37,615 nt of DNA from a virus. The notes under the pieces were generated by a model. That model searched no databases. It saw nothing but the letters and a program-made list of their open reading frames with translations, and was not told the origin of the DNA. The stretch spans positions 1 to 37,615 of the IMG/VR virus record IMGVR_UViG_3300036652_000706. The stretch is one strand, 5' to 3'. Made by a program: the position numbers and the translations under genes. This document shows, piece after piece, positions 17,459 through 33,911 of this stretch; position 1 is the first letter of the stretch, and every line of letters begins with the position of its first letter.

Positions 17459-17464
17459 ATGTTC

Positions 17465-18562: not shown

Positions 18563-18565
18563 TTG

Positions 18566-18594
18566 TTGACAATGATATCACGTACTGATATCAT
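18566..18594 (+). promoter_or_regulatory. Autoregulated promoter with palindromic operator
   Basis: TTGACA (18566-18571), 17 nt, TATCAT (18589-18594). The spacer and -10 contain the perfect inverted repeat ATGATATCA-CGTAC-TGATATCAT (18572-18594). The ATG of the RHH gene is 7 nt after the -10, so the transcript is predicted leaderless. The operator position implies repression by the product. Confidence 0.85.
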
Positions 18595-18601
18595 CAGCTA
18601 T

Positions 18602-18739
18602 ATGAGATTAATTGATGACAGCACATTGGTCCGGATCCGGAAGCCGTTAGTACAATTACTGAATGTACGTGCAATCCGGAATAAGAGCAGTATCCGGCAA
18701 GAACTGGAAGTTATCTTGCGGAAAGAGTTTAATCTGTAA
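18602..18739 (+). CDS. Second ribbon-helix-helix regulator (45 aa)
   Basis: A 45-residue protein: strand STLVRIRKP near 7-15, helix PLVQLLNVRAIRN, turn NKSS, helix SIRQELEVILRKEF. This is the beta-alpha-alpha order of Arc/MetJ/CopG-type repressors. It is first in the rightward packaging operon and directly downstream of a perfect 9+5+9 palindrome, probably its operator. Its stop overlaps the next ATG (TAATG). No Shine-Dalgarno sequence; leaderless start predicted. It probably represses the terminase operon and itself. Confidence 0.7.
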   Translation: MRLIDDSTLVRIRKPLVQLLNVRAIRNKSSIRQELEVILRKEFNL

Positions 18740-19095
18740 TGGCACACGTTATCCTCCAGGGCAATATTAAGCAGAACCTGACACGGGAGCAGGGATTAAA
18801 GGTCTGGAACATCTTACAAGGCACGGCTGAGCCTGAGGATGAGAAACAGGCCATGTATTGTAACAAAGTCGTAAAGATTTACTTGAACTGGCGGGAAGCT
18901 CCTGATGATTATGTACGACAGCACCTGCACGCTATTATTCCGCTTGCCCTCAATGAGTGGCGGGTTGACGAACAGAGAGTACCGGTCAAACCAGCAACAG
19001 AGTTCGCGTGGGACTTTGCCCGCAGGCATGAGTTATGGGCACATGGCAGGGCAAACATGAAGCTGATTAACGGTCAGCCGGAGTTAGCGGTATGA
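18739..19095 (+). CDS. Hypothetical protein upstream of terminase
   Basis: A 118-residue protein, helical and Trp-rich (REQGLKVWNILQGTAEPEDE; FAWDFARRHELWAHGR). TAATG overlap with the RHH gene and ATGA overlap with the next gene. No family recognised. Genes here often encode replication or packaging accessories, but nothing in the sequence decides. Confidence 0.65.
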   Translation: MAHVILQGNIKQNLTREQGLKVWNILQGTAEPEDEKQAMYCNKVVKIYLNWREAPDDYVRQHLHAIIPLALNEWRVDEQRVPVKPATEFAWDFARRHELWAHGRANMKLINGQPELAV

Positions 19096-19346
19096 TGTTT
19101 AAACGTAAATTGCCATATTCTCAAGAAGAAGTAGCGTTACAGATAGGGGTGATAACTGATCTTATGAAGCAGCGGGATAAGAGTATGCAACTCGCAGTTG
19201 TGATGCGGCTGAGTGATAGTAAACAGCAGCGATATTTAGAAGAGCAGGATACAGCTACTGATAATATTGATGTATCGCAAAAAGTACTAGGTTTTATGCT
19301 GGAGAGCAATGAGGCGTATTTAAAAAAGAAAGTAGGCAAGTCATGA
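19092..19346 (+). CDS. Hypothetical helical protein
   Basis: An 84-residue helical protein (SQEEVALQIGVITDLMKQRD; SQKVLGFMLESNEAYLKKK) with ATGA overlaps on both sides. No motif recognised. Member of the pre-terminase operon. Confidence 0.6.
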   Translation: MMFKRKLPYSQEEVALQIGVITDLMKQRDKSMQLAVVMRLSDSKQQRYLEEQDTATDNIDVSQKVLGFMLESNEAYLKKKVGKS

Positions 19347-19552
19347 TGACGAAAGCAGGGGGCAGTAAGTTAGTTAAGTCGATGGTACACAAACATGGTA
19401 GTTACGAAGCGTGGTGCGAACACATGGCGAAAATGGGTAGCAAAGGTGGAAGCAAGTCGCATGTACGCCCGTTTCAAACTGATAGGGAACTGGCACGACG
19501 AGCAGGACGCTTAGGCGGCTTGGGACGTACTGGGTGGCGTAAGTATTCTTGA
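19343..19552 (+). CDS. Small Gly-rich basic protein with KGG-like motif
   Basis: A 69-residue protein with HMAKMGSKGGSKSHVRPF and then ELARRAGRLGGLGRTGWRKY. The GSKGG and AGRLGG repeats recall KGG (conidiation/stress-type) motifs found in small bacterial and phage proteins. The role is not established here. Its start overlaps the previous stop; the terminase promoter begins at its 3' end. Confidence 0.6.
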   Translation: MMTKAGGSKLVKSMVHKHGSYEAWCEHMAKMGSKGGSKSHVRPFQTDRELARRAGRLGGLGRTGWRKYS

Positions 19553-19575
19553 CTCTTTTTAAAGTGTGGTATAGT
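19549..19575 (+). promoter_or_regulatory. Promoter of the terminase genes
   Basis: TTGACT (19549-19554), a short 15-nt spacer with TG upstream of the -10, TATAGT (19570-19575). The ATG is 10 nt further, so the leader is only a few nt and has no Shine-Dalgarno sequence. Confidence 0.6.
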
Positions 19576-19585
19576 AAGTTTAACT

Positions 19586-20044
19586 ATGGCACACGCTGGC
19601 GGCAGACCTTTAACATTTAAAACTGTTGCTGAATTAGAATCTAAGATCAATGAGTACTTTAAGGCTCATGCTTTTAAAAATGATGTGCCTACGATTACAG
19701 GGTTAGCAGTATATCTTGATGTTGATAGGAGAACATTATATAACTATGGTGAGAAGGATGAGTTTTTTCCCGCAATAAAAAGAGCATTAAGCAAATGTGA
19801 GGCTGCAATTGAGCAACGAGCGATGTTAGGCGGTCTAAATGCAACGATGGCAATATTCAGTTTGAAGAATAATTATGGCTGGGTGGATAAGACTGAGACA
19901 GATGTTACGACTAACGGTGAAAACTTAAACGTAGGAAGTGGGTTAAATGCCGCCGATCTCGATGCAAGACTTGCAGCACTTGTCGCTGGAGCAAAAACTG
20001 GAAGCAATACAACTCCTAGAGGCAAGAAACAGGCTAAGAGCTAA
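19586..20044 (+). CDS. terS: Terminase small subunit
   Basis: A 152-residue protein that would recognise viral DNA and load the packaging motor. It starts GGRPLTFKTVAELESKINEY, then TITGLAVYLDVDRRTLYNYG (a helix-turn-helix), EFFPAIKRAL, and IFSLKNNYGWVDK: the typical order of a widespread TerS family. The C-terminus is Ala/Lys-rich. It overlaps the large subunit by 98 nt. Its mRNA leader is nearly absent. A cos or pac site would be expected nearby but is not identified. Confidence 0.85.
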   Translation: MAHAGGRPLTFKTVAELESKINEYFKAHAFKNDVPTITGLAVYLDVDRRTLYNYGEKDEFFPAIKRALSKCEAAIEQRAMLGGLNATMAIFSLKNNYGWVDKTETDVTTNGENLNVGSGLNAADLDARLAALVAGAKTGSNTTPRGKKQAKS

Positions 20045-21578
20045 AGAAGACCCGGTATTCTTTATTGAGACATACCTTAAGACCTTTGATCCGCGCCCTG
20101 AAGCCTATCCTCATCATCTTGATTTTATATTGTACGATTTTCAGAAGGACTATGTTACAGGACTGGTGGAGGCAATACGAACCGGTTATGACATCTTCGA
20201 TGAGAAGTCTAGAGACATGGGTGTATCATGGCTGGCATTGGCTGTCCGTTTCTGGCTATGGCTATCTGAAGATGGGTACCAGGGGCTGCTTGGCAGTCGT
20301 AAAGAAGATTACGTTGACAATGGTACATTAGATAGTCTGTACGGTAAGCTGGATTACTTTATTACTCACATTAAAGATCCGTTGGTTTTACCAAAGGGAT
20401 TTGATGTTGCGAAACACCGCACCTACATGCGCCTCATTAATCCTGAGAATGGCAATGTGTTGAAAGGTGAGAGTAGCAACAAGAACTTCAGCCGTGGTGG
20501 ACGTTATAAAGATGTGTTTTTTGATGAGTTTGGTTTCTGGCCTGATGCCCGTAACAGTTGGACGGCAGCTGGTGATGCAACTCGCTGCCGGCATGCGGTA
20601 ACGACACCCCCTGATGAACCAACATTTGCTAAATCGTTGCGCTTTAGCGATAAGGTAAAGGTACGCACTTGGCATTGGACGCTACATCCTCGTAAAGATG
20701 CAGCATGGTACAAGTATGAGCAGAGTAGGCGTACTGAAGAAGAAGTATTGCACGAACTTGATATTAGTTGGGAATATTCCAGTACTGGTAGACCATACCC
20801 AGAGATTAGCCAGGTTGCATTTGGGCAGTATGAGTACGACAAAGAGATGCCGTTGTACATGAGCATTGACTTAGGGTTAGATGCGGTGGCGCTTGGGTGG
20901 TATCAGCCACTTAAGAATAGTGATTGGGTAAATATGGTAGATGCGTATGAAGCCAGTGATAAGATTATCGAGTGGTATTTTCCATTCTTTGGTTTAAGTG
21001 ATTGCGTTAATGTATCGCAGTGTTCTTATTGTGGCAAGACACACAGTTTTGATTATTCGGATAAAGATCTAGCTGCTATGCAGAAAGTACAGCACTTTAA
21101 GCGGGCTATCTTCTTTGGAGATCCATCTGGTAAACAGCGGCACGTGGAAAGCGGTGTAGCACCATACACTATCCTTGAAGAGCATGGTATTGAGGTACAG
21201 ATCAACGAACAAGAAAATAACTGGACATCTCGGCGTGATGCTACAAAACGTTTGTTTACCCACATGACGGTGAATGATACTCAAGGCACTCGCTGGTGGA
21301 GTGAATGTATCAAAAATGCTCACTATCCAAAACGTGAAGAAACTAGTCAGGCAATTACGCCCCTTACAAAACCGGTGCATGACTGGACTTCTCACCATAG
21401 GACACAGACAGAATACTTCAGTGTCAATTATAAAAGTGATTATGGTATTAGTGATGAACCGCGTATGGTACAGGTGCCTGCTAAGCAGGGATTCTATGTA
21501 GCACCAAGTGGTGAACCAGTGGGGTTAGGGCTAAATATCCAGAAAATTTTAAAAGACGCTAATAGGAGGCATAGGTAA
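19947..21578 (+). CDS. terL: Terminase large subunit
   Basis: A 543-residue ATPase-nuclease that packages DNA into the prohead. Deviant Walker A KSRDMGVSW at 87-95 and Walker B DVFFDEF at 189-195. The nuclease acidic residues are D308 (MSIDLGLD), D392 (FFGDPSG) and D479 (HDWTSH). The nuclease part has an extra Cys-containing loop (SQCSYCGKTH near 357-366) that may hold a metal. The start at 19947 follows GGAAGTGGG and overlaps terS by 98 nt; ATG 19962 is an alternative. Full length, no frameshift. Confidence 0.93.
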   Translation: MPPISMQDLQHLSLEQKLEAIQLLEARNRLRAKEDPVFFIETYLKTFDPRPEAYPHHLDFILYDFQKDYVTGLVEAIRTGYDIFDEKSRDMGVSWLALAVRFWLWLSEDGYQGLLGSRKEDYVDNGTLDSLYGKLDYFITHIKDPLVLPKGFDVAKHRTYMRLINPENGNVLKGESSNKNFSRGGRYKDVFFDEFGFWPDARNSWTAAGDATRCRHAVTTPPDEPTFAKSLRFSDKVKVRTWHWTLHPRKDAAWYKYEQSRRTEEEVLHELDISWEYSSTGRPYPEISQVAFGQYEYDKEMPLYMSIDLGLDAVALGWYQPLKNSDWVNMVDAYEASDKIIEWYFPFFGLSDCVNVSQCSYCGKTHSFDYSDKDLAAMQKVQHFKRAIFFGDPSGKQRHVESGVAPYTILEEHGIEVQINEQENNWTSRRDATKRLFTHMTVNDTQGTRWWSECIKNAHYPKREETSQAITPLTKPVHDWTSHHRTQTEYFSVNYKSDYGISDEPRMVQVPAKQGFYVAPSGEPVGLGLNIQKILKDANRRHR

Positions 21579-21580
21579 GT

Positions 21581-21805
21581 ATGTATCCCACACAGATAAA
21601 CATCATTCTTTCAAAGCAGATAGTGGTGCAGGCTATCCCATATTATTGTATGCGCTGCAAGACCCGTTTATTTGATATTAACCACGATATCCTTGCACTA
21701 TGGATGGGGCAGGGATACCCGGCACATGAGATACCAAATAATATGGGCTGGGTGCGCCACCAATGTAAGGGGTGTAAGAAAGAATACAACTGGTACTTTC
21801 AGTAA
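21581..21805 (+). CDS. Zinc-ribbon protein
   Basis: A 74-residue protein with YYCMRCKTR and, 35 residues later, HQCKGCKKEYNW: two CxxC knuckles forming a likely zinc ribbon. It lies 2 nt after terL, in the terL-portal gap. Small zinc ribbons at this place are common in phages, perhaps as packaging or transcription accessories. Function not shown. Confidence 0.7.
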   Translation: MYPTQINIILSKQIVVQAIPYYCMRCKTRLFDINHDILALWMGQGYPAHEIPNNMGWVRHQCKGCKKEYNWYFQ

Positions 21806-21843
21806 CATAAAAGCTTATTTATGCAAGTTTAACAGGGTTACAT

Positions 21844-21870
21844 TTGCGATAAACATAAGTATGGTATTAT
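21844..21870 (+). promoter_or_regulatory. Promoter of the portal gene
   Basis: TTGCGA (21844-21849), 15 nt, TATTAT (21865-21870). The ATG is 8 nt further, so a leaderless transcript is predicted. The spacer is short, so the match is moderate. Confidence 0.5.
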
Positions 21871-21878
21871 AAGCAATA

Positions 21879-24071
21879 ATGAATCCCAACCTCTACGAAG
21901 CTCCTCTATCCGATCCGGTAGTTGATGACATTATCAACAAAGACGGGGTGCTGGAGAATTTGCCATTACTGGATTTGGATTTGCCAGATGAACGAATAGT
22001 CCAGACATTACACACCCGCATACAGAATTCGCTTGATTACTTTAATGATAAAACTGGTTTCAACCTACATGATGTACGGGTTAAGAACCTTAATGCGTTT
22101 AAGGGCGATCATGCACAGCTTAATCCGTTATACACCTACGATGATACGTGGACGGATAATGAAATCTATGTTGGTGTGGATGCCATCGTTGCTTACACTA
22201 CAGCTGAAACTTCTCGTTCAGAAGTTTATCCTGCGTCAGGGAGTCCTGAGAGTAAGATATTTGCAGTTGACCTAGAGAAGTATCACTATGCACATAGTAA
22301 GAGATTTTTCCTAGCAAAGAAAGTCGAAGCGTCAATACTTAATCTACTTACTCAGCAGTTAGGTGTTATCAAGTTGGTGTGGGATCCGAATTATGGTAAA
22401 ACTGGTGAAATCCTACCTAAGATTGTTAACCCTAGTCATTACTTCGTAGACAAAAACGCCAAACTGGATGAAATACCAGAGTTTGAGGGTGAGGTGTTAA
22501 AAGACAGTGTGGAGGGTTTGATTGCTCGCTTTCCAAAGAAGGAGCGGGATATTATGAATCTCTTCGGTATTAAGCGCAAGGGTGCGCAGAACATCAGTAA
22601 AGAGATAGCATATCGTGAAGTGTGGTTCACCTACTATGATGACAACAATAAGCCACAACAGGCAGTTGCATGGTATGTGAATCGGTTAGTGTTAGACAAG
22701 AAGCGTAATCCCAACTGGTTATATGAGGATGAGGGAGAGAACTTCTTAGATACTCCTGCACGACCCTATGTACGTTTTAACCTTATAAACGACGGCGAAC
22801 ACGCTATAGACTTAACTGGGCCATTAGCTCAGGCATTGTCAATGCAGAGCAATTTGAACATTGAAGGTCAGCAAGTTGTTGAGAACTTGCGTACTGCTAA
22901 TGGTTCTAAACTTGTAGCAGCAAGTGCTATGACAACTGATCAGATGGAAGACTGGGATGATAAACCTAACCAGACCATAGCTCTTAAGTTAAAGCAAGGT
23001 CAAACTATTAATGATGTTGCTAAGCAGTTTGAGCCGCACATCGTTTCCCAAGAGTTGGTTAACGATAAGATGGACAGTCGTAATACGGTACATGGCATAC
23101 TTGGTACTCCTAGCCAATTCAGGGGTGATGATACTGACCAAACGAAGACGGCTAGTGAAGCGGCACTTATTAAAAACCAGGCTAGTGGCAGGCAAGATAA
23201 GATTATTCGCGCTATTGATTACGCGATGGATAAGTATTACAACTTGCTGACACAAATGATGCTTGTATACTACTCCGAATCACATTATCGAACAGTGAAT
23301 GGTGGGGATGGTAACTTTGACCATATCGAGATGCACCGTAACAAGATAGAAAGTGGCATGACTGTAACGGTGCAAGCTGGTACGACATTAGCGTTTGACA
23401 AGGCGCGTCAAGAAGCTGTGGCGCAAAATGCGGCTGAGTTGGGGCTACTTGCTCCATATGACTACTACCGTCTCATGCACATGGAACAACCGCAGAAGCT
23501 GTACGATAACCTCATGAAGTGGAAAACTAATCCGCAGCAATTAGCAGTTGATTTGGGCAATGAAGAAGAAGACCACGATGCCATTATAGACTTTACGGAG
23601 TTAATCAATGGTCGTGCCGCTGAACAGCGTGAAGATATTACTCCTGCATACATCGAGCAGTTCCGTAAGAAAATGATTACTGATCAATTCTTAAGTGCAA
23701 ATAAGAAAAATCAGCAGAAAGTTATCAACTTCGTATTGAAAGCAGCAGAAGCTTTGGCACTTCGTACTGCTATTGACCAAGCGTCAAGCCAACCTGAACC
23801 ACCCGAACCATTACCTAGCCAGGTTGATAAAACAATGTTACCTATGCCTGCAGTAAATCAACCGGGGGGTGCAATGCCTCCTGTAATGCCGGGCGCACCA
23901 ATGATGCCTCAAGCTGCGCCTCCTGCTGGATTACTGCCCGCTGCAGCTGCACCTGGTATACAAGGCGTTATGCAAATGGCTCAACAACCCGCACCACAAC
24001 CGGCAGCACCGAACTTAAATCCTAGTCAGCCTATGCCACCACAAACTGTCGCTTCCTTGCCACCAATGTAA
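21879..24071 (+). CDS. Portal protein
   Basis: A 730-residue protein of podovirus portal size. It would form the dodecameric ring through which DNA enters and leaves the head. The stem region shows QLGVIKLVWDPNYGKTGE; the wing shows PSHYFVDKNAKLDEIPEFEG and YVRFNLINDGEHAIDLTGP; the crown-side helix follows TKTASEAALIKNQASGRQDK. The C-terminal 100 residues are Pro/Met/Gln/Ala-rich and probably flexible. Placed after terL and before scaffold and capsid genes, as expected. No Shine-Dalgarno sequence, with a -10 box 8 nt upstream. Confidence 0.88.
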   Translation: MNPNLYEAPLSDPVVDDIINKDGVLENLPLLDLDLPDERIVQTLHTRIQNSLDYFNDKTGFNLHDVRVKNLNAFKGDHAQLNPLYTYDDTWTDNEIYVGVDAIVAYTTAETSRSEVYPASGSPESKIFAVDLEKYHYAHSKRFFLAKKVEASILNLLTQQLGVIKLVWDPNYGKTGEILPKIVNPSHYFVDKNAKLDEIPEFEGEVLKDSVEGLIARFPKKERDIMNLFGIKRKGAQNISKEIAYREVWFTYYDDNNKPQQAVAWYVNRLVLDKKRNPNWLYEDEGENFLDTPARPYVRFNLINDGEHAIDLTGPLAQALSMQSNLNIEGQQVVENLRTANGSKLVAASAMTTDQMEDWDDKPNQTIALKLKQGQTINDVAKQFEPHIVSQELVNDKMDSRNTVHGILGTPSQFRGDDTDQTKTASEAALIKNQASGRQDKIIRAIDYAMDKYYNLLTQMMLVYYSESHYRTVNGGDGNFDHIEMHRNKIESGMTVTVQAGTTLAFDKARQEAVAQNAAELGLLAPYDYYRLMHMEQPQKLYDNLMKWKTNPQQLAVDLGNEEEDHDAIIDFTELINGRAAEQREDITPAYIEQFRKKMITDQFLSANKKNQQKVINFVLKAAEALALRTAIDQASSQPEPPEPLPSQVDKTMLPMPAVNQPGGAMPPVMPGAPMMPQAAPPAGLLPAAAAPGIQGVMQMAQQPAPQPAAPNLNPSQPMPPQTVASLPPM

Positions 24072-24108
24072 TATTATGGTAAAGTTTAATAAGTAAAAGG
24101 GGTATAAC

Positions 24109-25101
24109 ATGCCAGAACCAGTAGCACCAGTTGCTGATGCACCCGTAGCTCATGAAGAGCCGAAGGCACCAACAACACCAAAAATAAGCCTTAAAACGCC
24201 ATTGAGCGAGCAAACAGCAGCGCTCACAAAGATTATGGCGAACACGCCAGAGAAACCAGTCGAAGAAGCTGTTGTCGAACCAGTTACGCCTGATCAACCG
24301 AAAGAAGATGAGAAAGTATTAGAGACGGCGGTTGAAACACTCAACGAAGAACCTGAAGAATTACCAGTAGAGGATGATGAGGACGAAGAGCCAATCGTAA
24401 CGGCACCTGAGTTGGGTACATGGCAAGAGTACGTGCTTAAGAATCTACCAAACATTACTGCTCGAATTGTTGATGCTGAGGGTAAGACAAAGACATTGCA
24501 AGTTAAATCAGATGCCGAACTGCCCGCAGGCTTCAGTTTCGTAGATGATGCGGCACGTTCACAGTTCTCAAGAGATATTGCAGGACAAGAAGTGCGAGCG
24601 CAGAAGCTTTTAGACGAGTACAATCAGAAACAAGTTCAGGAACAGGTTCGTCAGTTTGAGGTACAGGAAGCAAAAGATGTTGCCAGTGATCTGAAGTGGT
24701 TGCAGTCTAACGGTTACATTAAGAAGTTTCAGTATGCGGAAGACGATCCGAAGTTTAACAGCGATCCGGCAGTTAAAGAAGCAAATGCTATCTATGACCT
24801 TTACAAAAAGACCAATAATGAATACATGCGCAAATATATGAACACAAACCGAACATTCCGTATTAGTTACCGTGATGCTGCCGACAAGTACTTTGCGCAG
24901 CAGGCGCGGCAGAGTAAAGACAAACCAGCCGACAAACCTGTACCTAAAATTGAAAAGACCCCGACAGAGAAAGCACGTGATGATATAGCACGTAAGCAAG
25001 GTGCGCCGCAGGGCGGTGATGCCGGCGCTGCTAAACCAGCTGCTTTTAAAGGTATGACATTTGATGATATTAACCGCTTAGCGAGAATGGGAAAGATTTA
25101 A
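24109..25101 (+). CDS. Scaffolding protein
   Basis: A 330-residue protein. Residues 1-100 are Pro/Glu-rich and acidic, the middle is helical with a long coiled-coil tendency (DEYNQKQVQEQVRQFEVQEA), and the C-terminus is basic, ending FDDINRLARMGKI. An acidic, helical, mostly disordered protein between portal and capsid fits a scaffold that guides prohead assembly. AAGGGG stands before the ATG. Evidence is positional and compositional. Confidence 0.72.
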   Translation: MPEPVAPVADAPVAHEEPKAPTTPKISLKTPLSEQTAALTKIMANTPEKPVEEAVVEPVTPDQPKEDEKVLETAVETLNEEPEELPVEDDEDEEPIVTAPELGTWQEYVLKNLPNITARIVDAEGKTKTLQVKSDAELPAGFSFVDDAARSQFSRDIAGQEVRAQKLLDEYNQKQVQEQVRQFEVQEAKDVASDLKWLQSNGYIKKFQYAEDDPKFNSDPAVKEANAIYDLYKKTNNEYMRKYMNTNRTFRISYRDAADKYFAQQARQSKDKPADKPVPKIEKTPTEKARDDIARKQGAPQGGDAGAAKPAAFKGMTFDDINRLARMGKI

Positions 25102-25102
25102 C

Positions 25103-25327
25103 ATGAACCAAGTAATACTGATTATTGCAATGCTGACACATCTTGAGTTAATCACAAAAGATCAGGCAAAACAGTTAGTACAGAATTTACGCTATTCAAC
25201 TATCCCTGATGATTACGAACAATGTCATAAGATAATTGCTGATTTGTTCAACAAAGCGGAGATTAACGTGAAGAAGGAACTGAAAGATGTTCTTGTTGAT
25301 GGAAAAAAGGTAACGGTTAAAAAATAA
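25103..25327 (+). CDS. Small hypothetical protein before the capsid gene
   Basis: A 74-residue protein, helical first half (MLTHLELITKDQAKQLVQNL) and Lys-rich end (VLVDGKKVTVKK). It is 1 nt after the scaffold gene, whose 3' end supplies GGGAAAG as a ribosome-binding site. It ends just before leader copy 3. Unrecognised. Confidence 0.6.
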   Translation: MNQVILIIAMLTHLELITKDQAKQLVQNLRYSTIPDDYEQCHKIIADLFNKAEINVKKELKDVLVDGKKVTVKK

Positions 25328-25331
25328 AAGC

Positions 25332-25402
25332 TTGACGTAGCATAATAACTACCATATAGTTATTTCTCGTAAGGCCTGAGCCACATCTGTGGCTCTTTTT
25401 TA
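25332..25402 (+). promoter_or_regulatory. Late promoter plus leader hairpin, copy 3
   Basis: TTGACG (25332-25337), 17 nt, TATAGT (25355-25360), then GTAAGGCCTGAGCC (25369-25382). GAGCCACA pairs with TGTGGCTC and six T follow. Precedes the major capsid gene. Confidence 0.85.
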
Positions 25403-25426
25403 TATCTTAAAAATAGGACGATTAAT

Positions 25427-26518
25427 ATGGCAGGACAGATTTTTACAAACCGTTTAACTGATATAACCTATCAGTACATTTTGCCGGTACTTATCGACGG
25501 CGTGAGCAACTCGAACGTATTTACGTCTCGTATGCTTAGTAATACTAAAGACTGGGAAGGCGTAACATACAACGTACCTGTCCAGACAGCGTTCAGCCCA
25601 ACAGGTGGTTCGTTTAATGGCATGGATCAATTCTCCACAGCTTCTACGAACAACACCCGGCAAGCAACGTTCTACATTACTGGTCAATACCAGTCGATTG
25701 TTATCCCCGGCATTGAAGCAGCGGTTAACAGTGGCACTGATTCACAAGTAATTAAGCTGATGACTGCGAAAGCTGATGAAGCTCGTATCTCTTCGGCTGA
25801 TGCAATTGGTACAGAATTCTATAGCTTCGGCCTTGGTAAAGACTTTGATGGTCTTGGCAACATTGTAGATAATGGTACGAATGCACCTACTTATGGTGGA
25901 CTTACCCGTTCACAGTACCCGTTCTTGGTCGCTGATGTAACATCGGTTGCTAACAACACTATTACTTTAGACTACCTTGGTTCTGAATTCGATAACAGCT
26001 CTGCTGCTTCTAGTACCTCAGAAAGTCCAACAATGGGGCTTGCTCCAAAGAACATTTGGACATTCATTGAAGGCTTGCTTATGCCAATGGTATCAGCTCG
26101 CTACGAAGCTTTGGCAGTCCGTGGTTACAACCGTGTTGACGGTAAAACCCCAATGGGTACAAGCGTACCTGAAGGCGACACGAGTTTGTCTGGTTCAGCT
26201 GGCTTCATTAGTCTTACCTTCCGTGGACGCCCAATTGTGGCAGACGACAAGGCGACAGCTCAGACATTCTTCTGGATTAACGAGAAGTACCTTGCTTTCC
26301 ATACGCAAAAGAGTGCTGAACTGCGTGAAATTAGTTCCACTGTCGAATCAATGGAAGGTTTCTATGAAGATGTTCCCTTCCCGTCAGCTTTTCAGTTCCG
26401 CGATATGATGAGTTCTATTAACCAGCTTGGACAAGTTGGGGTGCTTATCCTCCTCGGTAACTTGATCGATAAACAACCTCGCCGTAACGGTAAACTAATC
26501 GCAATTACAGGAAACTAA
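25427..26518 (+). CDS. Major capsid protein
   Basis: A 363-residue protein in the standard place after the scaffold gene. Starts MAGQIFTNRLTDITYQYILP, contains TYNVPVQTAFSPTGGSFNG, an Asn/Ser-rich middle loop, and a conserved-looking C-terminus (FQFRDMMSSINQLGQVGVLI, then NLIDKQPRRNGK). Size and secondary-structure pattern fit an HK97-fold capsid subunit without a processed delta domain. It has its own late promoter, consistent with high expression. A likely client of the phage GroEL. Confidence 0.82.
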   Translation: MAGQIFTNRLTDITYQYILPVLIDGVSNSNVFTSRMLSNTKDWEGVTYNVPVQTAFSPTGGSFNGMDQFSTASTNNTRQATFYITGQYQSIVIPGIEAAVNSGTDSQVIKLMTAKADEARISSADAIGTEFYSFGLGKDFDGLGNIVDNGTNAPTYGGLTRSQYPFLVADVTSVANNTITLDYLGSEFDNSSAASSTSESPTMGLAPKNIWTFIEGLLMPMVSARYEALAVRGYNRVDGKTPMGTSVPEGDTSLSGSAGFISLTFRGRPIVADDKATAQTFFWINEKYLAFHTQKSAELREISSTVESMEGFYEDVPFPSAFQFRDMMSSINQLGQVGVLILLGNLIDKQPRRNGKLIAITGN

Positions 26519-26529
26519 GGAGAAATATA

Positions 26530-27312
26530 ATGGAATCAGGTTTTCGACAATTAACGACTCAGGATATCACAACCCTCAGTACCACCAAGCAGGAGCAATT
26601 TGGTGCAATGGGTGCAACTCCTGATGGCAGAATCTTTCGGTACGCCGGTTTTGGTGGTACTTCAACAATTGCTCCTTCGCAGCTTCTAGTTGCCAAAGCT
26701 TACACTGCTAACTACTACGGTTTGGCAATTACTGCTGTTGGTACGGGTGGTCAGACTACTGGCAACTTACTTGCTGGCAGCACACAACTTGTACTTACCA
26801 ATGGTGCAACTGCGATTACGCAGGATCAGTTCGCAGAGGGTTATCTGGAGGTTATTCAGACTTCTGGTACCAATGAAGGCCCTGTTCTCTACAAGATTAA
26901 GGGCAACACCGCTGCCGCTGCAACTACTGGTTATGTAACTGTTTTCTTGAACCAAGATGAACCACTTCGCAATGCTGAAACATTGGTTGCTGGAACTGAC
27001 ACAGCAAGCCTTAACCCAAGTCCTTATGCAGCTGTTGCACCAAGTGCTACCGCTGGACAAGTGGCAGGTGTGTCGGTCGTACAGACCCCTAACAGTTCAA
27101 CTGTTACTAACTACGGTTGGGTGCAGACTCAGGGTAGTTGTATCTTGACGAATGATGCAGGTGGCAACTTGACTGTTGGTGAAGGTATTGCGCAAAGCAC
27201 TACTACTGCCGGTGATATCGTAGCAGTAGCTGCAACGACTTACCAGATTGGGCAGACTAAGAAAGCCTTTAACGCAAGCACCGCTGGCCCTTGTACTATT
27301 AACTTAGCTTAG
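26530..27312 (+). CDS. Capsid-associated (decoration/head) protein
   Basis: A 260-residue Gly/Thr/Ala-rich, beta-type protein (LVLTNGATAITQDQFAEGYL; GYVTVFLNQDEPL) directly after the capsid gene with AAGGAG before the ATG. Such proteins in this place are often decoration or minor capsid proteins. No specific family recognised. Confidence 0.7.
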   Translation: MESGFRQLTTQDITTLSTTKQEQFGAMGATPDGRIFRYAGFGGTSTIAPSQLLVAKAYTANYYGLAITAVGTGGQTTGNLLAGSTQLVLTNGATAITQDQFAEGYLEVIQTSGTNEGPVLYKIKGNTAAAATTGYVTVFLNQDEPLRNAETLVAGTDTASLNPSPYAAVAPSATAGQVAGVSVVQTPNSSTVTNYGWVQTQGSCILTNDAGGNLTVGEGIAQSTTTAGDIVAVAATTYQIGQTKKAFNASTAGPCTINLA

Positions 27313-27325
27313 AAAGGGAAATTAG

Positions 27326-27742
27326 ATGGCTACTCAAGATATTGGTCAATACATTTACCCTATCAGGGCTAATGGGTTACGTCTTAAGAGTAATGAACCA
27401 CTTGTAATTGGGGGTACGATGACTTCTGGTGGTATTAGTACGGGTACTCCTGCGACGCTAGCCTCAGCTGCAACGATAGCATTTACTCCTACCAAAGCGG
27501 TAACTACTCATACGCCTACCCAAAGTGAAACGATTAATTTCTCTGCTCCTGGGACGGCTGGAACAGAGATTTGGTTGGAAGTGGTAACATCTGGCACTTC
27601 CACCTATACCCTTACTTTTGGTACGAATACAAAGACGACTGGTACGCTGGCAACCGGTACGACATCTGCCAAGACATTCTTGGTGAACTTTGTTTCTGAT
27701 GGCACGAACTGGGTTGAATCAGCCCGCACTACGGCAATGTAG
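27326..27742 (+). CDS. Small virion protein, possible decoration protein
   Basis: A 138-residue Thr/Gly/Ser-rich, beta-type protein. First 30 residues MATQDIGQYIYPIRANGLRL, then a low-complexity Thr-rich sandwich (TYTLTFGTNTKTTGTLATGT). GAAAGGGAAA precedes the ATG. Last gene of the capsid operon before a terminator. Confidence 0.65.
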   Translation: MATQDIGQYIYPIRANGLRLKSNEPLVIGGTMTSGGISTGTPATLASAATIAFTPTKAVTTHTPTQSETINFSAPGTAGTEIWLEVVTSGTSTYTLTFGTNTKTTGTLATGTTSAKTFLVNFVSDGTNWVESARTTAM

Positions 27743-27763
27743 AGCCTTATCCTACAATAAATT

Positions 27764-27788
27764 AAGACCATATATTGGTCTTTTTTTA
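27764..27788 (+). terminator. Intrinsic terminator of the capsid operon
   Basis: AAGACCA-TATAT-TGGTCTT, a 7-bp stem with a 5-nt loop and a run of seven T. It overlaps the -35 of the next promoter. Confidence 0.85.
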
Positions 27789-27804
27789 TTTGTTATGGTA
27801 TGAT
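27775..27804 (+). promoter_or_regulatory. Promoter embedded in the terminator, leaderless start
   Basis: TTGGTC (27775-27780), 18 nt, TATGAT (27799-27804); the ATG at 27812 is 7 nt further. The -35 is the right arm of the terminator hairpin. No late leader hairpin here. Confidence 0.55.
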
Positions 27805-27811
27805 GCTGCTA

Positions 27812-28030
27812 ATGGATAAAGCCTCTCTGTTGGAGCTACAAAAAGACGCATCACAGCGGTTTGCTGAATTGGCACGTAAGCGTGATGAATTTAAAGCCCA
27901 GTGGGAGAATACTGTACTTGATATGAACAAGGTTGAAGGTGAATACAACGCCTACTCTGCTCTTTTGAATCAATTCCCTGGTGAAGACAAAGTAGTAAAA
28001 CGTAAATCTAAGGAGAAAGTAAATGGCTGA
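27812..28030 (+). CDS. Small coiled-coil protein
   Basis: A 72-residue Lys/Glu-rich helical protein (LLELQKDASQRFAELARKRD) with a basic end (VVKRKSKEKVNG). I chose the ATG at 27812 because the -10 box lies 7 nt upstream; the codons before it would precede the transcript. It overlaps the next gene by 8 nt. A head-completion or assembly accessory is possible. Confidence 0.65.
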   Translation: MDKASLLELQKDASQRFAELARKRDEFKAQWENTVLDMNKVEGEYNAYSALLNQFPGEDKVVKRKSKEKVNG

Positions 28031-28589
28031 GGAATATTACGGTCAGTCCCAAATTAGCGGTAGTATGGATATCAAAACGGTGCAGGAGCGCTGTAGAGAG
28101 TATTACGCAATCAGTGACTTTGTTGTGGTGATGAACATTGATACTGAACCGTTTGCTTATCAAATCCAGCGACCTGAGAACTTTGATTATGAACAACCTG
28201 ATCCTGTAACGATGAATGTTGTAATGACAAAACCACCGGAACGAATTGTATTGCAACCTGGTGAAACACGTTTGTGTCCAGCTTATGAAGCAGATTTGAT
28301 GATTAAGAATCTTATGGATAAGATGATATATCGCAGTCGTGGCTCTGCAATCTCTGAAGCAAAAGAGAAGGGGGAAGAAAACGTCAACATCAAAGAGTCT
28401 GTCATGGATCCTGAAACGCAACATCGCTACATCAAAGAGATTTATCAGGGCAAGAAAGATTTCTTACATGAGTATAACCAATCTATTGACAAGGTAAAAT
28501 CAGATGTAGCAAAGGATTTAGAAGATGACGAACCAGTTACGTCAGAAACTCCCCGCCGCCCAGGACGCCCAGCAAAACAAGCAGCTTGA
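28023..28589 (+). CDS. Hypothetical protein with AT-hook-like tail
   Basis: A 188-residue protein. The N-terminal 110 residues are mixed alpha/beta (FVVVMNIDTEPFAYQIQRP; ERIVLQPGETRLCPAYEADL), the middle is helical, and the end PRRPGRPAKQAA resembles an AT-hook. AAGGAG is 5-6 nt before the ATG. The last 65 nt overlap the next gene in another frame. Minor head protein or DNA-binding accessory; undetermined. Confidence 0.65.
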   Translation: MAEEYYGQSQISGSMDIKTVQERCREYYAISDFVVVMNIDTEPFAYQIQRPENFDYEQPDPVTMNVVMTKPPERIVLQPGETRLCPAYEADLMIKNLMDKMIYRSRGSAISEAKEKGEENVNIKESVMDPETQHRYIKEIYQGKKDFLHEYNQSIDKVKSDVAKDLEDDEPVTSETPRRPGRPAKQAA

Positions 28590-29370
28590 TAAGCGTGAAG
28601 CTGAAGTTGCCCGTCGTGAAGCCTTAGTCAATAACTATCCGAAGTTAATTGCTAAGGCGAAGATTCTTGAAGAGCAAATCAGTTATAAGGAAAAAGAGAA
28701 GAGTAGCCTTGAAGCTGAGCTGTTAGATATTAAACAAGATTATGAAGTGCAGATTACGGCTAACGAAGAGCAAAAAGCTGAATATGCTAAATTAGAACGT
28801 ACTAAAGCAACTTTGTCAAAAGAATGTGATACTTTGTTATCTCGTAAATTGGGCATTGAACAGGAAGTTAGCAAAGCGAAAGATAAGTTAGAAGAAGTTA
28901 ATCATACTATCCTGGATCAAAAGCGATACTTCAAAGAGCAAGAAAAAGTAATCGATGAGACTTTTGCTGATTGGAACGCTCAGCTAAATGAATTCCACCT
29001 TGAGGCAGAACATGAACAGGATAGGAAGAATGTCCTCTCTGGTGACATTATCCGACTTGAACAGGCAAAGGCAGCTATGGTACAGGATAACGAGAATAAA
29101 CACGCTATTATCGCTGAGCTTGATGAAACGTATAAATTGCGGGTTGAACAGTATAAAACTGATCTAAGCAGTAAAAAAGTCGAAGTCCAGAAAGAAGAGC
29201 AGAAATTATTGGAATTGGATTTGAGAAACAAGGGTTACATGGAAGTGCTTGCTAGCAGGGAGCAAGCTTTAACTATAAAAGAAACAGCCCTTAACAAACA
29301 GGAAACGGATTTAAATATGCGTGAACGTAATCTTAAAATGAAACTAGGGTTACTCAATGTTTCACTGTGA
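28525..29370 (+). CDS. Long coiled-coil protein
   Basis: A 281-residue protein that is almost entirely coiled-coil (EEQISYKEKEKSSLEAELLD; DKLEEVNHTILDQKRYFKEQ), with no globular domain visible. The first 22 codons overlap the end of the previous gene in another frame; AGAAGATG supplies a weak ribosome-binding site. A fibrous structural protein, internal scaffold or tail component is possible. Its stop is 6 nt before the extended -10 of leader copy 4. Confidence 0.7.
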   Translation: MTNQLRQKLPAAQDAQQNKQLDKREAEVARREALVNNYPKLIAKAKILEEQISYKEKEKSSLEAELLDIKQDYEVQITANEEQKAEYAKLERTKATLSKECDTLLSRKLGIEQEVSKAKDKLEEVNHTILDQKRYFKEQEKVIDETFADWNAQLNEFHLEAEHEQDRKNVLSGDIIRLEQAKAAMVQDNENKHAIIAELDETYKLRVEQYKTDLSSKKVEVQKEEQKLLELDLRNKGYMEVLASREQALTIKETALNKQETDLNMRERNLKMKLGLLNVSL

Positions 29371-29375
29371 AAATA

Positions 29376-29426
29376 TGATACAATAACGCTGTAAGGCCTG
29401 AGCCACATCTATCTGTGGCTTTTTTA
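29376..29426 (+). promoter_or_regulatory. Late promoter plus leader hairpin, copy 4
   Basis: Extended -10 TGA-TACAAT (29376-29384) with no good -35, then GTAAGGCCTGAGCC (29391-29404). AGCCACA pairs with TGTGGCT, followed by six T. Precedes the fibre operon. The ATG at 29434 has no Shine-Dalgarno sequence. Confidence 0.75.
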
Positions 29427-29433
29427 ATTTCAA

Positions 29434-29850
29434 ATGTTACCAGAAGGCAATCGTTTACCACGTGATAATAACCGTATCCCACTTATGGGGGGGATATCTT
29501 ATTTAAATGCCGCAGTATCCGTACCAGCAACGTTTGATCCAGCAACAGGTGCGCAGTTAGTAACAGCAGTAGCATCTGCCGCAGAGTTACCTTCTACCAT
29601 ACAAAATGGGCAACAGACAGTTACGACAAGCGCTGTAGCACTTCCTACTGGTGCTTTGACACAGGGTGTTATTTTAGAGAGTTTATCAACGAATACAGTC
29701 AGTATTTTTATTGGCGCATCAGGTGTAACAACATCTACAGGAATTGAATTGTTGCCAGGTGCTTCTACTAGCGTGGCAGTTAACAATACTAATCTTATTT
29801 ATGTTATTTGTGCTTCTACTAGCCCAGTAATTTCATGGATAGGAAGTTAA
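29434..29850 (+). CDS. Small virion surface-type protein
   Basis: A 138-residue Thr/Ser/Val-rich, beta-type protein. It starts MLPEGNRLPRDNNRIPLMGG and ends ELLPGASTSVAVNNTNLIYV then a short strand with ISWIGS, a pattern seen in small head- or tail-decoration proteins. First gene after leader copy 4 and 1 nt before the large fibre gene. Related in layout to the protein at 34152. Confidence 0.65.
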   Translation: MLPEGNRLPRDNNRIPLMGGISYLNAAVSVPATFDPATGAQLVTAVASAAELPSTIQNGQQTVTTSAVALPTGALTQGVILESLSTNTVSIFIGASGVTTSTGIELLPGASTSVAVNNTNLIYVICASTSPVISWIGS

Positions 29851-29851
29851 A

Positions 29852-31954
29852 ATGCCTCTGTTGCCCTTTGGATCTGCACCGTTTATTAACCCCGTCCCGG
29901 AAGGTAAGTTTTTATATTTTGGGGATAAAAATACAGGTATTAAAGGAGATGCTACTAATTTTGGTACTGGAATATTTGTTTTAGACGGCTCCAGTGGAGC
30001 AGCCATAGAACGTGATATTGTTGCAACTGGTCAATTTGGCTTATTTGCCAATACTGCTAGTGATGGTTCAGGGACATGGTTACCTTCCATTAATTTTTCA
30101 TCTAGTGGTAGTTTACAACTTTCAACTGCGAATAGTTCTTTACAACTTTCCTCTGCCGGCGGGATAGTCTTTATTGGAAATTCAGGACATAATGTTGTTT
30201 TTGGAACAGACATTACTCCAGGCGGCATAGTAAATACAAATAGTTTTGGCGGTAGTGGAGGCTTGAGTATTGTTTCAAATGTCGCTGGTCATAATGGGAT
30301 ACTGAAGTCTGATAACTTAACTGCTGATCGTACTATCCAGTTACCTGATCTAAGTGGAACAATATCCGTTTCACCCCTAACGACAAAAGGTGATCTTTAT
30401 ACGTATTCAACTGGTGATACTCGTTTTCCGGTAGGTACAGATGGATATGTTTTAAGCGCTGATTCTACACAGACTACTGGACTCAAGTGGATAGCAACAG
30501 GTGGAACTGGAACGGTAACATCTGTAGGTGTATCTGGTGCAAATGGTATAGGCGTATCTGGTTCTCCTGTAACTGCTTCAGGTACGATTGCGCTTAGCCT
30601 TGGCAATATTACTCCTACGACGGTGAATAGTATTACCCTATCTGGCAGCTCAACGCCTTCTCTAGCGGTAACAGGTACAAGTTCTGTTTCTGGTGCTAAT
30701 ACAGGTGATCAGACAATTACGTTAACTGGAGATGTAACAGGTACAGGTACAGGTAGTTTTGTTACAGCGATTAAATCAAGTGTAACGTTGGCTGGGAGTC
30801 CGACAACTACAACACAATCTCCAAGTGATAATTCTACCAAGATAGCTACGACTGCATATACCGATGCAGCAGTGGCAGCTGCTGTACAGGGGTTGTCTAT
30901 TAAGCAATCCGTACAAGAAGCCACAGCTGCAGCACTGCCAACAAATACTTATTTAGCGGGAGTAATTACAATCACGGCTACTGGAACACTTACAGTAGAC
31001 GGACAGACGGTACAGTTAAATGACCGGGTACTGGTCAAAGATGAAGTTACGCAAGCCCATAACGGTATTTATCTTTGTACGACATTTGGCACCACAGGCG
31101 TACAAGCGGTTTTGACTCGGGCAACTGACAGCAACACTTCTGCTGATATAGTTGGAGCTTTCACTTTTGCAGAGACAGGTACGGTAAACGCCAGTTCGGG
31201 ATGGGTAAACACTAACTCTGGAACAATTACAATCGGAACCACGGCAATTACTTACACACAGTTTTCAGGAGCCGGCGAGATAACGGCTGGAACTGGTTTA
31301 TCAAAGTCAGGTAATACTATTTCCTTGAGTACGCCTGTAAGCGTTGCTAACGGTGGTATCGGCACTGGAACAGCCAGTATTACAGCATTTAATAATATTA
31401 CCGGTCTTTCAGCGGCAGGAACCACGGGTACTACTTCTACGAATCTAGTGTTTTCAACTTCACCGGTGCTGGTATCACCTGCACTTGGTACCCCAACTGC
31501 CATTGTGTTGACAAATGCAACTGGCACAGCTGCATCTTTGACAGCTGGTAAGGCGACAATTTTAGCGACAGCACGAGCTATTAACGGCGTAAATTTTGAC
31601 GGATCTGCTGCAATCACCATTCCAGGTACACCGTGGACAAATGTAACGGGTACTACCCAAACTGCGGCAGTAAATAACGGATACATTGCAAATAATGCCT
31701 CCTTAGTAACGGTAACACTTCCTAGCACCGCTGCAATAGGGCAGACAGTATCAGTAGCGGGTGCGGGTGCGGGAGGCTGGAAACTGGCTCAGAATGCTTC
31801 ACAACTGGTACATTTCGGTACTTCTGTAACCACTACAGGCACGGGTGGTTCATTAGCTAGTGTGAACCAGTATGACGCCGTTGAAGTGGTTTGTATCGTT
31901 GCTAATACCACATGGACGGTAATTAATTCTCAGGGGAACTTGACGGTAGTATAG
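29852..31954 (+). CDS. Large tail-fibre protein
   Basis: A 700-residue Gly/Thr/Ser/Ala-rich protein. It has the fibre repeats TKGDLYTYSTGDTRFPVGTD, GTGTVTSVGVSGANGIGVSG, TLTGDVTGTG and TKIATTAYTDAAVAAAV. Then comes QLNDRVLVKDEVTQAHNGIY, a module frequent in phage fibres, and the shaft-like SPALGTPTAIVLTNATGTAA. It probably trimerises and contacts the host surface. AGGAAG lies 6 nt before the ATG. Its stop abuts the next ATG (TAGATG). Long low-complexity stretches may recombine. Confidence 0.85.
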   Translation: MPLLPFGSAPFINPVPEGKFLYFGDKNTGIKGDATNFGTGIFVLDGSSGAAIERDIVATGQFGLFANTASDGSGTWLPSINFSSSGSLQLSTANSSLQLSSAGGIVFIGNSGHNVVFGTDITPGGIVNTNSFGGSGGLSIVSNVAGHNGILKSDNLTADRTIQLPDLSGTISVSPLTTKGDLYTYSTGDTRFPVGTDGYVLSADSTQTTGLKWIATGGTGTVTSVGVSGANGIGVSGSPVTASGTIALSLGNITPTTVNSITLSGSSTPSLAVTGTSSVSGANTGDQTITLTGDVTGTGTGSFVTAIKSSVTLAGSPTTTTQSPSDNSTKIATTAYTDAAVAAAVQGLSIKQSVQEATAAALPTNTYLAGVITITATGTLTVDGQTVQLNDRVLVKDEVTQAHNGIYLCTTFGTTGVQAVLTRATDSNTSADIVGAFTFAETGTVNASSGWVNTNSGTITIGTTAITYTQFSGAGEITAGTGLSKSGNTISLSTPVSVANGGIGTGTASITAFNNITGLSAAGTTGTTSTNLVFSTSPVLVSPALGTPTAIVLTNATGTAASLTAGKATILATARAINGVNFDGSAAITIPGTPWTNVTGTTQTAAVNNGYIANNASLVTVTLPSTAAIGQTVSVAGAGAGGWKLAQNASQLVHFGTSVTTTGTGGSLASVNQYDAVEVVCIVANTTWTVINSQGNLTVV

Positions 31955-32623
31955 ATGGCTACAATAACTACTTCGGTTACGATTAATCAGGGCCTAAATG
32001 GTTACGTGGAGCGTTCGATTAATGCACCTGGAGAAAGTTTCTCTACAATTCGTGCAGGTGCGGGTACAGATTCAGGTTATACTTCGGGGAATAATGGCGT
32101 TGAGATTGCAGGGCTTTTTGCTACTAATACAACTAATAGCTATCTAGCGCTTGAAAGAGTCATTTTGTTGTTTGATACATCTGCACTACCGTCGAATTCA
32201 ACGGTTACTTCAGCAAGTCTAAATCTTTACTTTACGGAAGAAGAGACTTCCTTAGGCACCACTTCTTTGGTTGTTGTTGCTTCAACGCCTGCTAGTAATA
32301 GTAGTCTTATCGCTAGTGATTATGCCAATCTTGGTTCTGTTTCTTTTGGTTCAATTGCACAAACAAGCATTACTTTTAATTCTTTGAATGTTATTTCTCT
32401 GAATTCCTCTGGAATAGCTGCTGTAACTCCAGGTGGTATGACTAAACTTGGCTGTGTTCTTGGTTGGGATTTTAATAATAGTTTTACAGGTACGTGGGCT
32501 TCTACTTCAAATACCTATATAGAATGGAGTTCTGCAGCTTTATCCTTAACATACACTAATCCTGCATTGTCAATTACTGGTATATCCTCACTATCTAACG
32601 TATCAACCATAACAACGGCATAA
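31955..32623 (+). CDS. DNRLRE-like beta-sandwich tail protein
   Basis: A 222-residue protein. LERVILLFDTSALPSNSTVT then SASLNLYFTEEE matches the core pattern of DNRLRE/carbohydrate-binding-like domains of secreted proteins. This suggests a surface-binding module on the tail. No signal peptide. It starts directly after the large fibre gene and is followed by the switchable fibre gene. Confidence 0.7.
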   Translation: MATITTSVTINQGLNGYVERSINAPGESFSTIRAGAGTDSGYTSGNNGVEIAGLFATNTTNSYLALERVILLFDTSALPSNSTVTSASLNLYFTEEETSLGTTSLVVVASTPASNSSLIASDYANLGSVSFGSIAQTSITFNSLNVISLNSSGIAAVTPGGMTKLGCVLGWDFNNSFTGTWASTSNTYIEWSSAALSLTYTNPALSITGISSLSNVSTITTA

Positions 32624-32632
32624 GAGGTAATC

Positions 32633-33316
32633 ATGGCGACAAATAATAGTTCAAATAACCAATTCACAAATGACAGCGATGGTTTTGACATCTCTGGTGG
32701 TACGACGAAACGAAAACTTACCGTTACCGCAGGAGATGTTACGTTAAGCGGTGGAGGCTCCAACACCTACACACTCCCAGCAGCCACCGACACCCTCGTC
32801 GGACGGGCTAGTACTGATACGCTGACGAATAAAGACCTCTCCAGCGCAACGAATGTATTTCCGAACGGTACCCAAGTGCAGGTAGCCACAACCAACTTTA
32901 CGGCATTTGCGACAGGCATGGCATTGATTCCCTACGACGACACTCCTCCTCAGATAACCGAGGGAGACGAGTATATGACCCAGACCATTACTCCGAAGTT
33001 AGCGACCAACCACTTGTTGATTGAGGTAACGGCTATGTTCTCTAGCTCAACGGCGCAGGATTTCATATATGCATTGTTCCAAGACGCCACGGCTAGTGCC
33101 CTGGCGGCTGATTCACAACTAATGTTAACGGCCACCGGCACGATGTCCTGCAAGTTGGCGTATGACATGGTAGCGGGTACGACATCGGCAACTACGTTTA
33201 GGTTCCGAGCTGGAGGTAGAAACGCTGGAACTACAACGTTCAACGGCACGAACGGTGGTCGGTTGTTCGGAGCGATATCAAAGTCCAACTTCAAAATCAC
33301 TGAGTACAAAGCCTGA
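32633..33316 (+). CDS. Switchable tail-fibre gene, expressed form A
   Basis: A 227-residue protein. Residues 1-41 are a constant N-terminus; residues 42-67 are encoded by the 78-bp inverted repeat (TYTLPAATDTLVGRASTDTL, then TNK, a motif common in fibre shafts just before the tip). Residues 68-227 form the A-specific C-terminal domain (for example TQTITPKLATNHLLIEVTAM). GAGGTAATC precedes the ATG. Recombination between the repeats would replace the A domain by the silent B domain downstream in frame. Confidence 0.85.
   Translation: MATNNSSNNQFTNDSDGFDISGGTTKRKLTVTAGDVTLSGGGSNTYTLPAATDTLVGRASTDTLTNKDLSSATNVFPNGTQVQVATTNFTAFATGMALIPYDDTPPQITEGDEYMTQTITPKLATNHLLIEVTAMFSSSTAQDFIYALFQDATASALAADSQLMLTATGTMSCKLAYDMVAGTTSATTFRFRAGGRNAGTTTFNGTNGGRLFGAISKSNFKITEYKA
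32756..32833 (+). repeat. 78-bp inverted repeat, left copy (in fibre gene A)
   Basis: Identical, in reverse complement, to 33718-33795. Begins GGCTCCAACACC and ends ACGAATAAA. The first base is codon position 1 of residue 42. The sequences diverge sharply on both sides. Confidence 0.97.
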
Positions 33317-33387
33317 TATGTGGTATAGAAGCGCTTAATTTGCTATATACGATCGCCAAGCGTGAAAATAAGAGGAAGTTAGTTATG

Positions 33388-33816
33388 TTAATTAGGATGA
33401 GCTGACCAAGTAAAGCCGTTATAACTAGCACCCATGTTACCGCCGTATGAGTTAGTGTACATAATAAAACCAGTGGTAGAAATATTAGTTATATAGGTGA
33501 AGATAACTAATGCAGTACCGATGTTACCAGTAAAATCTGTAATTGATGTAGGTGCCGTACCAGTTTTATAGCCAAGAAGTTGTGCTATTACTATAGGTGG
33601 CGTAGCAAAGGGAACAGGAAACGTGACGGTTGTGTTGACTGTATTTTGAGAGCCAGAAACGGTGGTATAACTCCACCCTGTTTGATAGGGAAAAGTATTA
33701 GTAGAACTGGCTAAATTTTTATTCGTCAGCGTATCAGTACTAGCCCGTCCGACGAGGGTGTCGGTGGCTGCTGGGAGTGTGTAGGTGTTGGAGCCGGTGC
33801 CTGTTGCAGTATGACG
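33388..33816 (-). pseudogene. Silent, inverted alternative fibre tip (form B, H-type-lectin-like)
   Basis: An open frame of 142 codons without a start codon or ribosome-binding site; a TAG lies just upstream at 33817-33819. It begins RHTATGTGS, then the 26 residues of the shared repeat, then 109 B-specific residues. TVTFPVPFATPPIVIAQLLG, ITNISTTGFIMY and the ending FTWSAHPN match the pattern of H-type lectin/fibre-tip domains (VxFpxpFxxpPxV ... tGF ... W.A.P). Inversion of 32756-33795 would join it to the N-terminus of gene A and give a 176-residue protein. It is a stored cassette rather than a decayed gene. Confidence 0.88.
33718..33795 (-). repeat. 78-bp inverted repeat, right copy (in silent form B)
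   Basis: Perfect reverse complement of 32756-32833, in the same reading frame relative to the B domain. The segment bounded by the two copies is 1040 bp. Confidence 0.97.
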
Positions 33817-33832
33817 CTAACTATGCTATATT
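33804..33832 (+). promoter_or_regulatory. Promoter of the small RNA
   Basis: TTGCAG (33804-33809), a 17-nt spacer, TATATT (33827-33832). It uses the same -35 as late promoter copy 1. It sits 9 bp outside the right inverted repeat and so would not move on inversion. Confidence 0.75.
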
Positions 33833-33838
33833 AGATGT

Positions 33839-33911
33839 ATTGATTATGTGTGCCATGGCCTTGCAAAAGGCTTTGGCGTCATGGCAAAGCCTCAGGAAAC
33901 TGGGGCTTTTC
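33839..33911 (+). ncRNA. Structured small RNA of about 73 nt
   Basis: The predicted start is about 33839. Outer stem TGCCATG (33851-33857)/CATGGCA (33880-33886) encloses a GCCTT/AAGGC hairpin. Terminator stem AGCCTCAG (33888-33895), GAAA loop, CTGGGGCT (33900-33907), then TTTTC. No start codon with a frame of useful length. It contains GGCCTT and CTCAGG, complementary to AAGGCC and CCTGAG of the late leaders. The rest of 33912-34066 shows nothing I can support. Confidence 0.65.

Follow-up and report, generated by a model that had tools for sequence, protein, structure and literature searches.

The window analysed here is a complete-looking virus record of 37,615 nucleotides (IMG/VR IMGVR_UViG_3300036652_000706) with a 126-bp terminal direct repeat, in which a tail-fibre gene faces a second fibre end on the opposite strand. 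The fibre gene expressed in this orientation (32633..33316, plus strand, 227 aa) consists of a constant N-terminal stem, N (32633..32755), a coding neck with GC-rich third positions that forms the left arm of an inverted repeat (32756..32833), and tip A (32834..33316), for which a TNF-like fold of the Pgp3 C-terminal type is predicted. Past the stop codon of A lies a short plus-strand scar, ATGTGGTATAGAAGCGCTTAA (33318..33338), which corresponds to the final codons (MWYRSA*) of a third tip, C. It is followed by a spacer (33339..33387) that separates the tail-to-tail tips and is the same in a flipped contig described below. The minus strand then carries the silent tip B (33388..33717), 109 codons and a stop with an H-type lectin domain and no start codon of its own, and the right arm (33718..33795).

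The two arms are exact reverse complements over 78 bp, are separated by 884 bp and both encode the peptide GSNTYTLPAATDTLVGRASTDTLTNK, the left one sharing the reading frame of the fibre stalk N and the right one that of minus-strand tip B. Over the next 33 bp inward of the arms, DNA identity drops sharply to 18/33, although the encoded proteins are still homologous (DLSSATNVFPN versus NLASSTNTFPY). No second inverted repeat of 20 nt or longer was found in the window, and the 192 phage loci used for comparison (1.24 Mb) contain no exact inverted repeat of at least 20 bp with a spacing above 200 bp, so that chance is not a fair explanation of the 78-bp repeat. Bounded by a TAG that lies a few codons beyond the right arm and by its stop at 33388-33390, the B frame stays open through the arm and the 109 codons that follow. 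Its first in-frame ATG, GTG or TTG lies only near the end of B, which therefore has no usable start; at this composition, 109 open codons would arise by chance with a probability of about 0.005. Flipping the 1040-bp segment exchanges the 160 residues of A for the 109 of B and keeps the 67-residue stem. A first-pass annotation had described the exact repeat at these positions and the divergence beyond it, the startless downstream copy in the same frame and the 160-for-109-residue trade, and all of these figures hold on recomputation. Just beyond the right arm, at 33801-33910, a promoter-like element (TTGCAG-N17-TATATT) points away from the cassette and is followed by hairpins and a T-rich stretch with no evident gene, possibly a small RNA.

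Three different folds are predicted for the three tips: TNF-like (Pgp3-C) for A, H-type lectin for B and Gp10_C for C. Modelled by AlphaFold2 with 30 relatives, tip A reaches a pLDDT of 89.8, and the best solved matches of the model are to the C-terminal domain of chlamydial Pgp3 (TM 0.76-0.80; for 4jdn, TM 0.79-0.80 and E about 1e-8 to 3e-9), followed by the TNF-like lectins Bc2L-C and PLTL. The A sequence of the window scores 21.4 bits against the Pgp3 C-terminal family, under the cut-off of 25; 21 of 30 homologues match the family at an E of 0.01 or below (best 2e-9), and the homologue in the related phage L019 attains 34.8 bits. The fold recurs in many predicted phage proteins, and at least 157 stretches in IMG/VR encode A-type tips attached to other phage stalks. 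In L019 (17635-18081) an A-type tip is joined to a different fibre gene; A is therefore a travelling module that moves between fibre genes. Tip B matches PF09458 (H-type lectin) at 26.9 bits against a curated cut-off of 24. The sole PDB match to the N-B sequence, a fluorescent protein, is by chance, and relatives of B were found in IMG/VR only in contig 3300036651_000745. The H-type-lectin-like end named in the first-pass annotation is borne out for B but not for A, whose fold is different. Fold prediction, which it had proposed for both tips, was informative for A, while the single-sequence model of N-B, built with no alignment of relatives, has a mean pLDDT of only 32.6. Tip C scores 75.6 bits against Gp10_C (PF21939; cut-off 27) and covers positions 4-138 of the 139 in the profile, and its alignment with homologues from named phages extends through its last residue. 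That A, B and C are all binding tips is plausible, and their folds point to glycans as the probable ligands.

IMG/VR was scanned by exact pattern using part of the arm, and one other record matched: IMGVR_UViG_3300036651_000745 (hereafter L124), a contig of 19,731 bp. Its positions 2-18701 equal window positions 14134-32833 with 0 mismatches over 18,700 bp, up to and including the final base of the left arm. There the contig departs from the window order and continues on the reverse strand of 33717-33318; with the arm included, L124 18624-19101 equals window 33795-33318 reversed, again with 0 mismatches (478 bp). The result is an uninterrupted 176-residue fibre composed of N, the arm and B. 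Tip C occupies the place of A, on the minus strand and tail to tail behind B, and a 31-bp shared neck stretch joins C to a second, reversed copy of N. At its end (19521-19731) the contig repeats the fibre start over 211 bp in inverted orientation, with one SNP (window 32599) relative to the main copy, which hints at two haplotypes in sample 3300036651. The contig holds both an N-B and an N-C junction and combines two molecular forms. It represents either both orientations of a C/B cassette in the sample or two strains joined via the shared B, and could be a chimera of strains; either reading implies N-B molecules, provided that the assembly is correct.

Both orientations are thereby observed at the assembly level, in one flipped contig with C instead of A. 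The flipped form foreseen by the first-pass annotation exists as the N-B fusion of L124, with no mismatch outside the cassette and with C replacing A. The exact A/B flip (N-B with A behind) was not found, the sole flipped contig carrying C, and a search of IMG/VR with the right-flank DNA returned no additional contig. The window and L124 differ both in orientation and in a tip exchange (A versus C). Because the exact last codons of C persist just past the stop of A, A replaced C in the lineage of the window, and this replacement took place without any base change over 18.7 kb. The genome of the window holds A and B only, C being represented by the 21-bp scar. A larger shufflon in this genome was considered and ruled out, as the complete window has no third cassette.

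The locus thus presents a constant N-terminus, alternative inverted C-termini and in-frame shared repeats. We are fairly confident that it is an invertible receptor-binding-tip cassette, which would flip by homologous recombination independently of an invertase. One fibre gene would provide the promoter, the start codon and the stem N. Behind N, two alternative C-terminal tips would lie tail to tail in opposite orientations, each after the same 78-bp neck. Recombination from neck to neck would flip the 1040-bp segment and fuse N in frame to A, as in the window, or to B, as in the flipped contig; the unfused tip would be silent because it lies on the opposite strand without a start. The flip itself would proceed by homologous recombination across the neck, either of the host RecA type or by annealing during replication, with no dedicated invertase. 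The tips would bind different surface glycans, and switching would alter which cells are recognised and hence the host range.

Six-frame searches of the genome gave no match to the serine recombinase family PF00239 (13 of 14 control genomes positive) or to the tyrosine recombinase family PF00589 (14 of 14 positive), in agreement with the first-pass annotation, which had recognised no invertase gene. Pfam and PHROG scans of about 30 ORFs likewise contained no recombinase. Around the cassette, the best candidate for a gix-like site mismatches at 8 of 18 specified positions, and the arms have no strong dyad symmetry. A Gin/Cin system of the gix type is ruled out by the lack of a PF00239 match and of a gix-like site. 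Since recombinase, gix-like site and strong dyad are all missing, homologous recombination or annealing across the neck via host functions is the favoured route of inversion. The phage encodes a VRR-NUC nuclease and an SSB-like protein, the latter called from its acidic DDIPF tail by sequence reading alone. An unrecognised recombinase may be present among the unannotated phage genes.

The main alternative, which we regard as rather unlikely, is that inversion of the same cassette is the work of a site-specific recombinase acting on a short site within the 31-bp core GGCTCCAACACCTACACACTCCCAGCAGCCA. The enzyme could come in trans from the host (of XerC/D type, or an invertase encoded by the host or a prophage) or be the product of a phage gene that escaped recognition. 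The necks of all three tips have just the 31-bp core in common, and its length is roughly that of a recombinase site. For the bifidophages 689b-1 and Bb423phi2, where inversion occurs without a flanking recombinase, an enzyme acting in trans has been suggested as a possible cause (PMC6109161). The arms, however, are a conserved coding neck without good dyad symmetry or a gix-like site, and their 78-bp identity far exceeds what such an enzyme needs and stops where protein homology has diverged. A tract of this length with such an end is a better fit to homology-driven exchange.

The composition of the arms bears on their origin. Their GC3 is 0.62, against a mean of 0.34 in structural genes, and a value this high or higher occurs in just 1.4% of equally long structural-gene windows. 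The orthologous necks of the related phages L028 and L031 have a GC3 of 0.27 and 0.31, respectively, and are identical to the arm at 53-54 of 78 positions. Tips A (0.59) and C (0.49) are also GC-rich, and tip B (0.29) and the stem N (0.34) are phage-like. Judged by base composition, the arms are a foreign-looking, GC-rich neck within an AT-rich phage. Inversion carries neck sequence from one side to the other, and a GC-rich arm that precedes both GC-rich A and AT-rich B is what would be expected if arm-to-arm recombination had copied the arm. On the simplest reading, the neck would have arrived with a foreign tip and then reached the B side by such recombination.

The capsid protein of the phage is common to 24 loci at 65-100% identity, and N has orthologues in L028, L031 and L032 (69-73% identity over residues 1-67). 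Each of these three fibres ends in a single tip that is not A, B or C, with no repeat and no facing cassette. Apart from the window's own locus and its sister contig, the neck motif was found in about 95 phage loci, none of which has a facing copy. The cassette is therefore recent and lineage-specific. Comparison with related phages, which the first-pass annotation had suggested as a way to find the flipped form, succeeded with L124 and returned single-tipped fibres from L028, L031 and L032.

These single-tipped, repeat-free orthologues would also suit a locus that does not switch, in which a few past events (a tip exchange and one inversion) left an orientation fixed in each strain, and the A/C exchange that further separates the window from L124 points the same way. 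We nevertheless consider such a rare rearrangement improbable. Zero point differences over 18,700 + 478 bp mean that changes of orientation outpaced base substitution, the reading frame of silent tip B remains open and intact, and N-B and N-C junctions occur within one contig from one sample. Perfect inverted repeats are a known cause of false flips in assemblies, and the 211 bp at the end of L124 repeat N in inverted orientation; the assembler might have crossed the 78-bp repeat wrongly, with all real molecules in one orientation. This is very unlikely, as the k-mers of up to 127 that JGI is described as using with 2x151 reads in a different project (PMC10604447) exceed the 78-bp arm, just 31 bp are shared at the N-C join, and the window by itself displays a facing, startless, in-frame lectin domain, an identical neck and the scar of C. 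That B is functionless debris of a duplicated fibre end, as its missing start and its minus-strand position outside any operon might suggest, is hardly credible given 109 codons and an arm that have stayed open against the odds noted above, an H-type lectin match above the cut-off and the unchanged B fused in frame to N in L124.

The phage that carries this switch, which the preferred reading takes to be a homology-driven tip cassette, resembles the TM7 phage DolZOral124_53_65 (MG269973) in its portal (40% over 82%), in a phage-encoded Cpn60 and in gene layout. It differs from that phage in its fibres, as DolZOral124_53_65 has pectate-lyase-type spikes and other fibre genes, with no inverted repeat of at least 16 bp at a spacing above 150 bp in the stretches scanned. 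Searched against genomes, the capsid protein found a single match (59%), in a 0.9-Mb MAG from a family whose genomes span 0.4-1.5 Mb. Named annotated phages gave no DNA match to the window. The host is likely a member of the Saccharibacteria or another patescibacterium. An attempt to assign it by CRISPR spacers from 393 genomes belonging to the class of MAG G002 was set aside, the matches being weak and short and mostly in Cpn60 and SSB-like genes.

Several other features of the genome deserve mention. The Cpn60/GroEL chaperonin shared with the TM7 phage lies at 5896-7428. Many genomes in the class of MAG G002 contain matches at 74-96% to the coding DNA of the SSB-like gene (10879-11706), and the DDIPF tail of its product looks as if it mimicked a host SSB tail. 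A highly repetitive, alanine-rich gene built of 9-bp units (15487-16302) has weak PHROG matches. A leader composed of a -10-like hexamer, AAGGC, a short GC hairpin and a T-run before the start of the next gene is repeated at 2396, 7770, 25369, 29376 and 34087 and also occurs in L028 (17275) and L031 (15478); in these relatives the stem sequence varies on both sides.

To our knowledge, the known fibre-tip inversion systems have a dedicated invertase. For the present cassette a coding neck in two copies appears to suffice, and a single duplication could provide a small phage with it; tip switching may therefore be more frequent than surveys of invertase genes suggest. We also know of little work on the phages of Saccharibacteria-type hosts, and a limited search of the literature on patescibacterial phages found no mention of tail-fibre inversion. 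A tip switch raises the question of whether it serves alternation among the surfaces of host variants or between an epibiont and its partner. CRISPR spacers of both Saccharibacteria and their actinobacterial hosts target some such phages (PMC10746230), so a switch in this group poses this question directly. Four points had escaped the first-pass annotation: a third tip, C, at the same site; its replacement by A, recorded in the scar; the foreign composition of the arms; and the Saccharibacteria-type identity of this phage. Combining them, we tentatively propose a broader picture: a phage of ultra-small Saccharibacteria-type hosts may deploy three structurally unrelated glycan-binding tips through invertase-free homologous recombination at a coding neck, where inversion (A/B, C/B) and the import of tips from other phages both occur, so that a short protein motif might double as structural joint and recombination hub.

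In the G segment of phage Mu (Gin) and the C segment of P1 (Cin), inversion swaps fibre C-termini and the alternative is silent on the other strand (PMC12529663, PMC8987985). The cassette described here would operate by analogy with these segments and with the Min and Rin shufflons. It shares with Mu and P1 a constant N-terminus, tip exchange by inversion and a silent alternative on the opposite strand. Mu and P1 encode their own serine invertase and have segments of 3 and 4.2 kb, compared with 1.04 kb and a 78-bp coding repeat here; in contrast to Gin, Cin and Min, this phage has no detectable serine invertase beside the segment and no 26-bp sites of the gix/cix type. With the shufflons of p15B (Min) and bifidophage Bb423phi1 (Rin) it has in common several receptor-binding C-termini per constant N-terminus and inverted forms that appear in assemblies. 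Min has a flanking serine recombinase and Rin a flanking tyrosine recombinase with 11-bp rix sites, each serving several cassettes (PMC6109161), whereas here there are two cassettes per genome and no recombinase was found. As neither the invertase nor the sites of these systems are found, the cassette is not a member of the enzyme-based Mu/P1 and Min/Rin families. The A/C swap at the neck, which left the genome otherwise identical, recalls the modular tip exchange of T-even adhesins at conserved fibre motifs, but here the exchange occurs within an invertible two-tip cassette and the displaced tip leaves a scar. The closest precedent comes from bifidophages 689b-1 and Bb423phi2: between these related phages the 3′-terminal 500 bp or so of a structural gene are inverted, with no recombinase flanking the locus. 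The crossover reported there is 8 bp long and suggests an enzyme acting in trans, and no function could be identified for the genes (PMC6109161). Unlike that locus, the cassette described here has a repeat made of 31-78 bp of coding neck and tips that are recognisable binding domains.
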